Shown piece after piece: positions 2,966 to 7,409 of a stretch of DNA of 64,000 bases (positions are counted from its first letter, which is position 1; each line of letters begins with the position of its first letter). A program made the position numbers and the translations under genes. The notes beneath the pieces are model-generated. The model saw only the letters and a list, made by a program, of their open reading frames with translations, made no database searches and was not told the DNA's origin. Source of the stretch: Geothermobacter ehrlichii. GTDB taxonomy: Bacteria; Desulfobacterota; Desulfuromonadia; Desulfuromonadales; Geothermobacteraceae. The stretch covers positions 186,001-250,000 of the forward strand of contig NZ_VNIB01000001.1 in NCBI RefSeq assembly GCF_008124615.1. Reading direction: 5' to 3'.

Positions 2966-3054
2966 GCGCCGTCGGCGGGGAAAAGGCGGGCAGGGGGTTG
3001 GCAAGTTCCCGTCCCCTGCGCTACAAAAGGGGGCAAATCCTTCGGAGGAGCGTC

Positions 3055-3642
3055 ATGCGCACCATCGTTCTTGCTTCGACAAGCCCCTATCGCCGGCGCC
3101 TGCTCGACCAGCTCGGCATTCCCTTTCTGACCGCCGCGCCGAAATTCGACGAGCAGCTGGAGCAGCATGTCGCTCCCGAACTGCTGGTCAAGCATCTGGC
3201 CGCCGGCAAGGCCCTGAGCCTGGCCCAGCGCTTTCCCGACGCACTGATCATCGGTTCCGACCAGATTTTCGTCGATCCACGCGGCCGGATTCACGGCAAG
3301 CCCGGAACCGCCCGCCAGGCCGAAAAGCAGCTTCGGGCCATGGCCGGTCGCAGCCATACCTTCTACACCGGTTTGTCGGTGCTCGACAGCGCCAGCGGGC
3401 AGGCCCTGACCGACTATGCCACCTTCACCGTCACCCTGCGCAAGCTTTCCGACGAAGAGATCCGCCACTATCTCGAGCGGGAGCGTCCCTTCGACTGCGC
3501 CGGCTCCTTCAAGGTGGAGGGGCTGGGCATCGCCCTGATGGAACGCATGGAGGGAGACGATTTCAACACTCTGATCGGCCTGCCGCTGATCCGCCTGGTC
3601 GACATGCTCGGCCAGTTCGGTGTCCGGGTACTGGCCCCGTAG
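3055..3642 (+). CDS. Maf-family nucleotide pyrophosphatase (YceF type)
   Basis: A 195-residue protein of normal Maf length. It hydrolyses nucleoside triphosphates to monophosphate plus pyrophosphate. The N-terminal LASTSPYRRRLLDQL loop, IIGSDQIF (catalytic Asp), HGKPGT, and the CAGSFKVEGLGIALMERMEGDD stretch match the YceF subgroup, which in E. coli acts on m7GTP, better than the dTTP/UTP-type Maf, which has GADT at the catalytic motif. The ATG at 3055 has GGAGGAG just upstream, so the 19 in-frame residues before it are not counted. It appears to be the last gene of its block; a 290-base gap with an unusual inverted repeat follows. Confidence 0.92.
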   Translation: MRTIVLASTSPYRRRLLDQLGIPFLTAAPKFDEQLEQHVAPELLVKHLAAGKALSLAQRFPDALIIGSDQIFVDPRGRIHGKPGTARQAEKQLRAMAGRSHTFYTGLSVLDSASGQALTDYATFTVTLRKLSDEEIRHYLERERPFDCAGSFKVEGLGIALMERMEGDDFNTLIGLPLIRLVDMLGQFGVRVLAP

Positions 3643-3761
3643 GCGGCGGCCGCCGCTTTCGTTGACCCCTTCGCGGCGGCGGTGGTAGAATCCGGCCGCT
3701 TTCGCCAGACCGTCCTTTCTTCTTTCGATTCTGATGCTCAGGAGTGGGTCGGGCTATCCAT

Positions 3762-3889
3762 GAACTGGCTGCAAATCCGGCTGTTTGGCCCAGTTTTCAG
3801 CTCCTTTTTGCCCCGTAGCTACGGCTATGCGGCTGCAAACGAGCCAAAATCTGGTCTCAAACATCCTTTTGCTTCAGCTCGCATAGTTC
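3762..3889. repeat. Large imperfect inverted repeat upstream of dnaE, with a mini-ORF on the minus strand
   Basis: The 3643-3932 gap has no conventional gene. About 55 bases from 3762 pair imperfectly with about 70 bases ending at 3889, around the perfect 12-base palindrome CCGTAGCTACGG (3813-3824). Matching arm pieces include GTTTTCAGCTC against GATTTTGGCTC (read in reverse complement) and TGTTTGG against TGTTTGAG. On the minus strand a full AGGAGGG (3894-3900) lies nine bases before an ATG (3884-3882) that opens a 19-codon frame ending in TAG at 3825-3827. The base composition is less GC-rich than the flanking genes. It looks like a dispersed, mobile or RNA-level element, but copy number cannot be seen here. 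Confidence 0.55.
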
Positions 3890-3932
3890 GACACCCTCCT
3901 AGTTCGTTTTTTGAAGCGCTACCGGAGCGGGA

Positions 3933-6900
3933 ATGCAACACGCCAATTTCGTCCATCTTCATCTGCACAGCCAGTACAGCCTGCTTGACGGCGCCATCAA
4001 GATCGACGACCTGGTGAACCGGGTCCGCGATCTGAACATGCCCGCCGTGGCCATAACCGACCACGGCAACATGCACGGCGCCATCGAATTCTACAAGAAG
4101 GCGCATGCCGCCGGCATCAAGCCGATCATCGGCAGCGAGCTCTATGTCGCGCCCGATTCCCGTTTCAAGAAGAGCGACGCCCGTGGCTCCTCCGAGGCTT
4201 CCTACCACCTGGTTCTGCTCTGCATGAACCAGACCGGGTACCGCAACCTCTGCCATCTGGTGACGGCGGCCAACATCGAGGGGTTCTACTACCGGCCGCG
4301 CATCGACTGGGAGCTGCTCAAGGAATACAATGAGGGGCTGATCGCCATGACCGCCTGCCTCGGCGGCGAGATTCCGGTGCTGATCAATCTCGGCCAGATG
4401 GACGAAGCGAAAAAGCGCGCCCGGGCCATGGCCGAGATCTTCGACGACGGCCGTCTCTACCTCGAACTGCAGGAAAACCACATTCCCGAACAGGCGGTGG
4501 TCAACGCCGGCCTGAAGGAGATCGCCGCCGAGCTCGGTCTGCCCCTGGTCGCCACCAACGACTGCCACTACCTGAACCGGGAGGATGCCCAGGCGCACGA
4601 GGTGCTGCTCTGCATCCAGACCGGCAAGTCGATGGACGATCCCAACCGTTTCCGCTTTGCCAACGACCAGTTCTATCTCAAGACGCCGGAAGAGATGGCG
4701 GCCATGTTCGGCGACTGTCCCGAGTCGCTGGACAACACCGTCCGCATTGCCGAACGCTGCAACCTCGAACTCGACCTGAAGACCTATCATTTTCCGCAAT
4801 ACGAAAAACCGGCCGACAAGAGCCTCGACGAGGTGCTGGCCGAGATGGCGTGGCAGGGGCTGGAAGAGCGGCTGCGGGCCATCCGCCGTCTGCGTCCTGA
4901 TTTCAGCGCCGAGGACGAGGAGCGCTACCGGGAGCGGCTGCAGACGGAGCTCGACTGCATCAGGCAGATGGGTTTTCCCGGCTACTTTCTGATCGTCGCC
5001 GACTTCATCAACTGGGCCAAGGATCACGACATTCCGGTCGGTCCGGGGCGCGGTTCGGCGGCCGGCTCGCTGGTCGCCTACGCCATCCGCATCACCGACA
5101 TCGATCCGATGCCGTACAACCTGCTGTTCGAGCGCTTTCTCAACCCGGAGCGGATATCGATGCCGGATATCGACGTCGATTTCTGCATCTACGGCCGCGA
5201 GGAAGTGATCAACTACGTTCGGGAGAAATACGGCGAGAAAAACGTCGCCCAGATCATCACCTTCGGCACCATGCAGGCCAAGGGCGTGGTGCGCGATGTC
5301 GGCCGCGCCCTGGGCATGACCTACGCCGAGGTCGACAAGATCGCCAAGCTGATCCCCTCGGTGCTGGGCATGACCCTCGAGCAGGCGCTGAAGCAGGAGC
5401 CGAAGCTGGTCGAACTGCGGGAGAAGGATCCCAAGGTCAGGGAGCTGATCCGCATCGCCCTGGCGCTGGAGGGGCTGACCCGCCACGCCTCCACCCATGC
5501 CGCCGGCGTGGTGGTGACGCCGAAGCCGCTGCCCGAATACCTGCCGCTGTACAAGGACCAGAAGGCCAATTCGCTGGTCACCCAGTACTCGATGAGCTAT
5601 GTCGAACAGATCGGCCTGGTCAAGTTCGACTTCCTCGGTCTGAAGACCCTGACCGTCATCAACAACGCCGTGCGCCTGATCCGCGAGGGGGTCAACCCCG
5701 ATTTCGACCTGAAGACGGTGCCCGACGACGACGAGAAGACCTACCAGCTTCTCTCCCGCGGCGAGACCACCGGCGTCTTCCAGCTCGAATCGAGCGGCAT
5801 GAAGGAGTATCTGGTCAAGCTGAAGCCGAACTGCTTCGAGGACCTGATCGCCATGGTCGCCCTCTACCGGCCGGGGCCCCTCGGCTCGGGCATGGTCGAC
5901 TCCTTCATCAAGCGCAAGCACGGGCTGGAGGATTTCGACTACCCCTTTCCGCAGCTCGAGCCGATCCTGAAGGACACCTACGGCGTCATCGTCTACCAGG
6001 AACAGGTCATGCTGATCGCGCAGACCCTGGCCAACTACAGCCTTGGCGGCGCCGACCTGCTGCGGCGGGCGATGGGCAAGAAGAAGCCCGAGGAGATGGC
6101 CAAGCAGAAGGAGATCTTCCTCGCCGGCGCCAAGGAGAACAAGCTCGACCTGAAGAAGGCCGAGGCGGTCTTCGACCTGATGGAGAAGTTCGCCGCCTAC
6201 GGCTTCAACAAGTCGCACTCGGCGGCCTACGCCCTGGTGGCCTACCAGACCGCCTACCTGAAGGCGCACTACCCGGTCGAGTTCATGGCGGCACTGCTCA
6301 CCGAGGACATGGAAAACACCGACAAGGTGATCAAGAACATCAACGAAGTGCGCTCCATGGGCATCGAGGTTCTGCCGCCGGACATCAACGCCTCGGATCG
6401 CACCTTCACCGTGCATGACGGCCAGATCCGCTTCGGCCTCGGCGCGGTCAAGGGCGCCGGCAGCGCCGCCCTCGACGCCATTCTGGCGGCACGGCAGGAA
6501 GCGCCGTTCGCCTCGCTGCACGATTTCTGCGAGCGGGTCGATCTGCGCAAGGTCAACAAGAAGGTGGTCGAGGCGCTGATCAAGTGCGGCGCTTTCGACT
6601 CGCTGGGCGGACATCGCGCCCAGTACCTGGCGGCCCTGGAAGATGCCATGGAGACAGCCGCCCGCATCCAGCGCGAGCGCGAAATCGGCCAGGAATCCCT
6701 GTTCGGCAGCGAGGAGATCCACACCACCGCCAACGGCGACGGCTACGGTCGCCTGCCGGACGTTCCCGAGTGGGACGATAAGACCAAGCTCGGCTTCGAG
6801 AAGGAATCGCTCGGCTTCTACATCTCCGGTCATCCGCTGGCCCGGCACGCCGAATCGATCAGGCGCTTCGCCACCGTCGACACCGCCGGGCTCGCCGAAT

Positions 6901-7409
6901 GCAGTGACAAGGAAGAGGTTCGTATCTGCGGTATCGTCAGCGGCCTGAAGGAGCTGACCACCAAGAAGGGCGACCGGATGGCGTTTGTCACCCTGGAGGA
7001 TCTGAACGGCTTCGTCGAGATGGTTGTCTTTCCCGAGACCTATGCCGAATCGCGCGAGCTGCTGCAGAGCGAGGAGGCTCTGCTGATCACCGGCAACGTC
7101 GACGCCGGCGAAGAGAGCAACAAGCTGATGGTGAACAAGGTCCAGAACCTGAGCGAGGTTCAGGCCAGCGAAACCCGGCGGGTTCATTTCCGGCTGACCA
7201 CGCCGGGGCTCGACGAAACCCGTCTGCGGCAACTGCGCGAGGTGATCGAGAAACACCGCGGCGAGTGCCAGGTCATGCTGCACATGGTCATTCCCGACCG
7301 CAGCGAGACGACCTTGCGGCTGCCGGACAATCTGAGGGTTGCGGCGACGGACCAAATGTTGGATGATGCCGAACGCCTTTTCGGCTATAATATCGTCACT
7401 TTTGAGTAG
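3933..7409 (+). CDS. dnaE: DNA polymerase III alpha subunit
   Basis: The replicative polymerase catalytic subunit, 1158 residues, close to E. coli DnaE (1160). The PHP domain opens with FVHLHLHSQYSLLDG and ITDHGNMHG. The polymerase palm shows PGRGSAAGSLV and the catalytic MPDIDVDFC with Asp412 and Asp414. ASTHAAGVV and YGFNKSHSAAYALVAYQTAYLK follow, then the helix-hairpin-helix region and an OB fold around residues 985-1045 (VRICGIVSGLKEL...VTLEDLNG). The ATG at 3933 follows GGAGCGGG. It is probably the first gene of a dnaE-accA-pfkB operon, with 81 bases to accA. The long antisense frame over it is a GC-rich shadow. Confidence 0.97.
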   Translation: MQHANFVHLHLHSQYSLLDGAIKIDDLVNRVRDLNMPAVAITDHGNMHGAIEFYKKAHAAGIKPIIGSELYVAPDSRFKKSDARGSSEASYHLVLLCMNQTGYRNLCHLVTAANIEGFYYRPRIDWELLKEYNEGLIAMTACLGGEIPVLINLGQMDEAKKRARAMAEIFDDGRLYLELQENHIPEQAVVNAGLKEIAAELGLPLVATNDCHYLNREDAQAHEVLLCIQTGKSMDDPNRFRFANDQFYLKTPEEMAAMFGDCPESLDNTVRIAERCNLELDLKTYHFPQYEKPADKSLDEVLAEMAWQGLEERLRAIRRLRPDFSAEDEERYRERLQTELDCIRQMGFPGYFLIVADFINWAKDHDIPVGPGRGSAAGSLVAYAIRITDIDPMPYNLLFERFLNPERISMPDIDVDFCIYGREEVINYVREKYGEKNVAQIITFGTMQAKGVVRDVGRALGMTYAEVDKIAKLIPSVLGMTLEQALKQEPKLVELREKDPKVRELIRIALALEGLTRHASTHAAGVVVTPKPLPEYLPLYKDQKANSLVTQYSMSYVEQIGLVKFDFLGLKTLTVINNAVRLIREGVNPDFDLKTVPDDDEKTYQLLSRGETTGVFQLESSGMKEYLVKLKPNCFEDLIAMVALYRPGPLGSGMVDSFIKRKHGLEDFDYPFPQLEPILKDTYGVIVYQEQVMLIAQTLANYSLGGADLLRRAMGKKKPEEMAKQKEIFLAGAKENKLDLKKAEAVFDLMEKFAAYGFNKSHSAAYALVAYQTAYLKAHYPVEFMAALLTEDMENTDKVIKNINEVRSMGIEVLPPDINASDRTFTVHDGQIRFGLGAVKGAGSAALDAILAARQEAPFASLHDFCERVDLRKVNKKVVEALIKCGAFDSLGGHRAQYLAALEDAMETAARIQREREIGQESLFGSEEIHTTANGDGYGRLPDVPEWDDKTKLGFEKESLGFYISGHPLARHAESIRRFATVDTAGLAECSDKEEVRICGIVSGLKELTTKKGDRMAFVTLEDLNGFVEMVVFPETYAESRELLQSEEALLITGNVDAGEESNKLMVNKVQNLSEVQASETRRVHFRLTTPGLDETRLRQLREVIEKHRGECQVMLHMVIPDRSETTLRLPDNLRVAATDQMLDDAERLFGYNIVTFE

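Follow-up and report, generated by a model that had tools for sequence, protein, structure and literature searches.

Between a maf-like ORF and dnaE, the window (the whole 64,000-nucleotide stretch of Geothermobacter ehrlichii DNA analysed here) carries a long imperfect inverted repeat with a small minus-strand frame inside it. The original prediction left three identities for it: a dispersed MITE- or REP-like repeat, a structured RNA or a leader peptide. Which of these is it, and what is it doing ahead of a replication gene?

The inverted repeat ahead of dnaE

The features of the locus are listed in Table 1. The upstream ORF (2998–3642) we take from its sequence to be maf. Structure was present over the 3762–3889 first assigned to the repeat, but the true element was wider, about 3738–3902 (~165 bp, with the left limit uncertain by 1–2 bases), and formed an imperfect palindrome. 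Folding of the element gave −54.5 kcal/mol on the plus strand (z −4.07) and −58.2 kcal/mol on the minus strand (z −3.67), and none of 200 shuffled sequences equalled it on either strand, confirming the long inverted repeat. An ungapped repeat finder run on the window reported no inverted repeat there, because the arms are imperfect and gapped. GC content over the element was 0.49–0.55 in 100-base windows against mostly 0.57–0.72 in the neighbouring genes, so that the element was indeed the poorer in GC. A covariance model built from 24 copies matched the window copy at 3736–3905 of the minus strand with 153.1 bits; its plus-strand match scored 54.6 bits.

Table 1. Features at the dnaE locus, in window coordinates
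Feature	Position	Strand	Basis
Whole element, very probably a decayed copy of a dispersed IS1182-type MITE with CTAG-type ends	3738–3902	.	Covariance-model match, BLASTN, alignment
Left terminal repeat, decayed	3738–3759	+	Comparison with ends in genome G017, alignment
Right terminal repeat, containing the AGGAGGG taken for a ribosome site	3881–3902	−	Sequence, G017 ends, alignment
Central palindrome CCGTAGCTACGG, hairpin apex	3813–3824	.	Sequence, consensus fold
19-codon mini-ORF, not conserved	3825–3884	−	ATG near right end in 5 of 25 copies
Open frame through the element, no coding selection across copies	3682–4017	+	ORF list, frame survey, synonymous test
Promoter-like box TTGACC-18-TAGAAT ahead of the element, probably dnaE's	3662–3691	+	Similar boxes at other dnaE loci
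dnaE, downstream of the element	3933–7409	+	Homologues in 57 of 58 relatives by first 300 residues

Of 30 dnaE loci, 18 had a promoter-like box upstream of the gene, at distances of 101 to 271 bases from the start codon. The box in the window was the farthest, and the window copy sat between it and the start codon of dnaE. When the loci were searched for an exact 14-base core motif of the element within 330 bases upstream of dnaE, one of the 30 was positive, the window's own, and the motif was not found there in the 29 relatives. The window copy offers a naturally occurring example of a cell tolerating an insertion that separates a promoter-like box from a replication gene. Six of the 30 loci (L089, L092, L095, L108, L109 and L087) had a separate, terminator-like hairpin, ACCGGT...ATCGGTTTT, after the promoter-like box and before dnaE, which could be a conserved dnaE leader attenuator.

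Copies across the order and their insertion sites

In the window's own genome one full copy was found by BLASTN, the remaining matches being 14–23 bases long. The covariance model gave two matches in this genome; within the window it matched the single copy on both strands, and both genome matches most likely come from that one copy. The family became visible only in relatives. BLASTN matches at E ≤ 0.001 were obtained in 26 of 58 relatives, and the covariance model matched 90 of the 136 genomes searched in the order (53 of the 84 that were of good quality) and 37 of 53 genera, in favour of a dispersed repeat of the MITE kind. As the model is palindromic and matches a single copy on both strands, its match counts overstate the number of copies, and lone weak matches in three genomes (G001, G075 and G092; E 1.6e-4 to 5.8e-4) may be chance. 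A degenerate core pattern was found in 116 stretches of genome contigs, of which the 80 listed all came from Desulfuromonadales groups or unresolved "Deltaproteobacteria". An exact 22-base pattern gave no match in the genome contigs collection, and at the settings used plasmids, phages and viral contigs gave no match to the element.

The full dispersed element was about 169 bp long, and copies were most readily compared in genome G017 (one contig, 4.13 Mb), where the left arm was matched 73 times at up to three mismatches and a control pattern not at all. Pieces of G017 adding up to 836 kb, about one fifth of the genome and mostly picked because they contained copies, yielded 63 element copies with both ends paired, at unrelated sites with differing flanks. 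Measured between TA pairs, 43 of them were 163 bp, 15 were 70 bp and 5 were of other sizes, and 163 bp leaves no room for a transposase-size ORF. Copies were flanked by TA within CTAG; most ended CTAGGAGGCTGTCGGACTATCC, and of the 63 copies 48 had CTA as the left trinucleotide and 51 had TAG as the right. The inverted ends of the full copies (~19 bp) matched each other, and all 43 lay 0–8 bases from their own consensus. The 15 short copies were internal-deletion forms of about 76 bp, which by eye look like the product of a loss between two GGCCCGGA repeats. At four inspected loci the left end was present alone.

One clean presence/absence site was observed. The element at 2372334 of G017 is lacking in G033, a congener free of the family by the covariance model, in which both flanks aligned (over about 7.1 kb at 79.9% and over 7.5 kb at 81.5%) and the two matches lay 26 bp apart. 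Near the same site, genome G051 was aligned by BLAST on the right side only and matched by eye on the left. The spacers at the site in relatives had no CTAG and were too diverged for a target duplication to be read.

Gene context in G017, judged with ORFs called by a length rule, was tandem for 25 of the 63 copies, divergent for 11 and convergent for 10, with 5 inside ORFs and 12 unclassed. In the tandem pairs the copies divided 14 to 11 by strand, with no orientation to the genes. Left-arm matches on the minus and plus strands numbered 24 and 16 in the first half of the contig, 18 and 15 in the second; counted by eye with an assumed origin position, there was no replichore bias of insertion.

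Two further loci deserve record. In genomes G003 and G004 (L021 and L023, about 1497–1671) a common insertion stood at the apparent stop codon of a P-II-like gene, presumably of glnB type by its sequence, whose TAG stop seems to come from the CTAG of the element. This insertion differed at 1 of 174 bases between the two genomes, and 100-base blocks within about 300 bases differed by 0–8; as a sign of constraint the low divergence is mild at best. The other locus, in G017 (L126, 670001–674919), had near-identical segments in tandem, about 1 kb (96.6%) and 0.45 kb (93.4%) long.

The small frames were then judged over a working set of copies. Thirty loci were examined, of which L024 and L033–L036 (shortened or divergent) and L037 (the same sequence as L012) were left out, giving 24 copies and, with the window copy, 25; L023 was additionally omitted from the alignment, consensus folds and covariation. 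In the window, AGGAGGG was present on the minus strand (3900–3894) nine bases before an ATG (3884–3882), and the 19-codon frame ended at a TAG (3827–3825) adjoining the central palindrome, all as originally described. The supposed perfect ribosome site, however, belongs to the transposon end. A minus-strand ATG near the right end was present in five of the 25 copies, the window's among them, and their frames differed, so that the mini-ORF was not conserved in relatives; in the alignment the window copy had a 4-base deletion at the mini-ORF region. On the plus strand some features fitted a small protein: an ATG followed the left end in 23 of 25 copies, 19 of these 23 had no stop before the last codons, an internal stop broke the frame in 3 of the 43 full G017 copies, and synonymous changes within G017 were in mild excess (39 of 102 against 0.295 expected). 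Across genera this was not borne out. Synonymous changes numbered 100 of 387 (0.258 against 0.278 expected), changes by codon position were flat (122/150/115), and the product had no Pfam match. As the minus-strand ATG was rare with differing frames and the synonymous test failed across genera, neither frame was accepted as a gene. The mini-ORF is most likely not a real gene, and a leader peptide or other small protein gene inside the repeat is very improbable.

Ends shared with IS1182-family insertion sequences

The ends of the element carried the terminus CTAG(C/G)AGnnTGTCGGACT, which was common to those of ISAzo2-type insertion sequences of the IS1182 family. When nine IS1182 ends were compared with the two MITE end types, eight had 0–2 mismatches in 18 positions and one had 5; in a background control, 1 of 230,118 18-mers had four or fewer mismatches. 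Four IS1182 copies were taken from plasmid records: the terminus was at both ends in three, one of which was annotated as ISAzo2 family, and at one end in the fourth.

Within the order, a search with PF01609 gave matches in 7 genomes and led to an IS1182 in G050 with the ends CTAGCAGTTTGTCGGACT and CTAGCAGTTTTACGGATT and a shortened protein (233.5 bits to NF033551, cut-off 270). Of 58 genomes, 18 had a match to this protein, in most cases a distant one; in six the match was close (73–100%: G050, G041, G056, G029, G006 and G028). G041 had an intact 1590-bp IS1182 with both ends of MITE type, whose 468-aa transposase was assigned to IS1182 by NCBIfam (365.8 bits, cut-off 270); the IS1182 remnants in G056, G029, G006 and G028 had surviving ends of MITE type. 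Copy-rich G017 itself contained only a distant IS1182 match, with different terminal repeats, and self-comparison of its pieces, about a fifth of the genome, revealed no insertion sequence with the element's ends.

On the strength of the shared ~18-bp terminus, the element was assigned to the IS1182 group as a non-autonomous member. It differs from the ISAzo2-type sequences, which are about 1.5–1.6 kb with a transposase gene, in having no transposase; by eye nothing beyond ~18 bp was common to the two, and as far as compared its core is not derived from them. The short extent of the match weighs against the link, as do the small number of genomes with a close IS1182 and the lack of one in G017.

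Two other families had been first guesses from the CTAG ends, and both were wrong. IS630/Tc1 (PF13358), suggested by the TA in CTAG, was matched in 2 of the 10 genomes searched, G017 not among them, and IS427-type IS5 (PF13340) was found in 3 of 58 genomes, in 2 above the cut-off. In G047 an IS630-type transposase gene adjoined a left end and a full element copy (L111, 1387–3198); by eye the ends of this IS630 were other than the element's, and it may have inserted independently at the CTAG of the element.

A REP- or REPIN-like repeat moved by Y1 (RAYT) transposases would likewise be palindromic, extragenic and present in many copies, as the element is. Y1_Tnp genes (PF01797) were almost universal in the relatives (52 of 58, with 26 matches in G041), and in G017 a cut-down left end stood ~0.5 kb from such a gene (L202, position 992), a proximity judged within chance. 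The Y1 genes were, however, as common in genomes without the element, and element ends showed no excess around them: 3 occurred in 158,583 bases near Y1 genes, compared with 4 in the 115,779 bases of dnaE loci used as background. Insertions had no replichore strand preference by eye, and the ends were those of IS1182 elements, a DDE transposon family. The REP-like option is therefore hardly credible.

The hairpin core and the place of the family among known elements

In the ~125-bp core, which as far as compared is not shared with the insertion sequences, compensatory changes have preserved the hairpin in many genera. The RNAalifold consensus of the minus strand contained 60 pairs at −74.4 kcal/mol, and that of the plus strand 42 pairs at −40.7 kcal/mol. 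In the minus-strand structure 24 pairs were changed on both sides, against 9.1 in shuffles and at most 12 in slid versions, and 60 cells had both-side changes, against 13.8 and at most 26. Since helices 2–4, inside the element ends, contained 15 of the 24 double-changed pairs, the covariation is not only the symmetry of transposase sites. A single copy with no covariation and no minus-strand transcript would have been read as chance structure; the copy was single in its own genome, but covariation across relatives was present. With strand-neutral arm pairing in 45 copies, wobbles in the core numbered 234 on the minus and 70 on the plus strand, and in the ends 18 and 14. Counted by sites, core wobbles were 19 against 8 (p = 0.05), and 12 against 5 at Watson-Crick-dominant sites (p = 0.14). 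The lean was to the minus strand in 44 of the 45 copies, the window copy being equal at 3 and 3. Because the copies share ancestry, this preference of the core for the minus strand is suggestive only.

Such a hairpin could be a structured RNA selected by the host, an attenuator, sRNA or mRNA stabiliser acting on dnaE or on many genes; the strong covariation, the more stable consensus fold of the minus strand and the place of the window copy downstream of a promoter-like box are all consistent with this. Against it, the tandem copies of G017 favoured neither strand, divergent and convergent sites were occupied as well, the 29 other dnaE loci did not share the element, and the wobbles of the window copy were balanced. 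Rfam had no match in the window, the best weak match scoring 18.7 bits against a gathering score of 104. A host-selected RNA is thus improbable: the structure itself stood, and as the copies are not oriented to genes the fold is read as the element's own substrate and not as a host regulator.

The window element is very probably, to judge from sequence comparison, a decayed single copy of a MITE family of the order, mobilised in trans by ISAzo2-type IS1182 transposases. Such a transposase would act in trans on the shared ~18-bp terminus, with insertion at CTAG or with CTAG carried along by the element, and copies would be mostly neutral and then decay. In this genome one copy would have inserted downstream of the promoter-like box and ahead of the dnaE start codon; with its ends decayed, it is presumably now immobile. 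The core keeps its full-length hairpin probably since the folded form matters in the life cycle of the element. More tentatively, the element may be a structure-dependent parasite which the ISAzo2-type transposase handles via a stem-loop or cruciform, a possible but doubtful reading under which this handling would be why a core foreign to the insertion sequences keeps its hairpin through compensatory change in many genera, leaning to one strand. Two weak points of the fold as substrate are that the ~76-bp form, with most of the core lost, stands at 15 G017 sites, and that the single empty site shows no replaced stem-loop.

With this assignment, a repeat that occurs in two thirds of the searched genomes of the order acquires an identity and a link to a transposase family, and spurious small ORFs and "ribosome sites" in those genomes are explained. 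The covarying core is also a ready data set for examining whether IS1182-type transposition needs stem-loops.

Among known palindromic repeats, ERIC is not known to have a transposase link, whereas the element shares IS1182 ends. ERIC, which a review (PMC10969869) covers, is otherwise similar, an imperfect palindrome, intergenic and spread over a whole bacterial group, with another sequence and other hosts. For IS1272, which belongs to the IS1182 family, insertion is proposed to replace a stem-loop and to produce no duplication (PMC5678879). IS1272 resembles the element in its transposase family and in the central role of a palindrome, and differs in being a full insertion sequence, in staphylococci, and in the proposed replacement, the element's one empty site showing none. 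If the structure-dependent reading were true, this family would offer a series of natural substrates for the stem-loop transposition proposed for IS1272.

Within open-licence full text, no description of this element family was found. The bacterial MITEs outlined in the review PMC10969869, including Chunjie of Geobacter uraniireducens, Correia and QMITE2, are like the element small and non-autonomous; they too have inverted ends, reach dozens of copies, vary in size through internal loss and give transcripts able to fold. They are from other hosts, and Chunjie, at 178–235 bp, is of another size. Geobacter and Pelobacter genome papers (PMC2700814, PMC2996986, PMC3543383) mention unnamed palindromic intergenic "multicopy nucleotide sequences", families of the same wider group; unlike the element, these have no transposase link in the descriptions compared, their alignments being supplementary. 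Because such unnamed palindromic families are mentioned there, the present one may be catalogued without a name.
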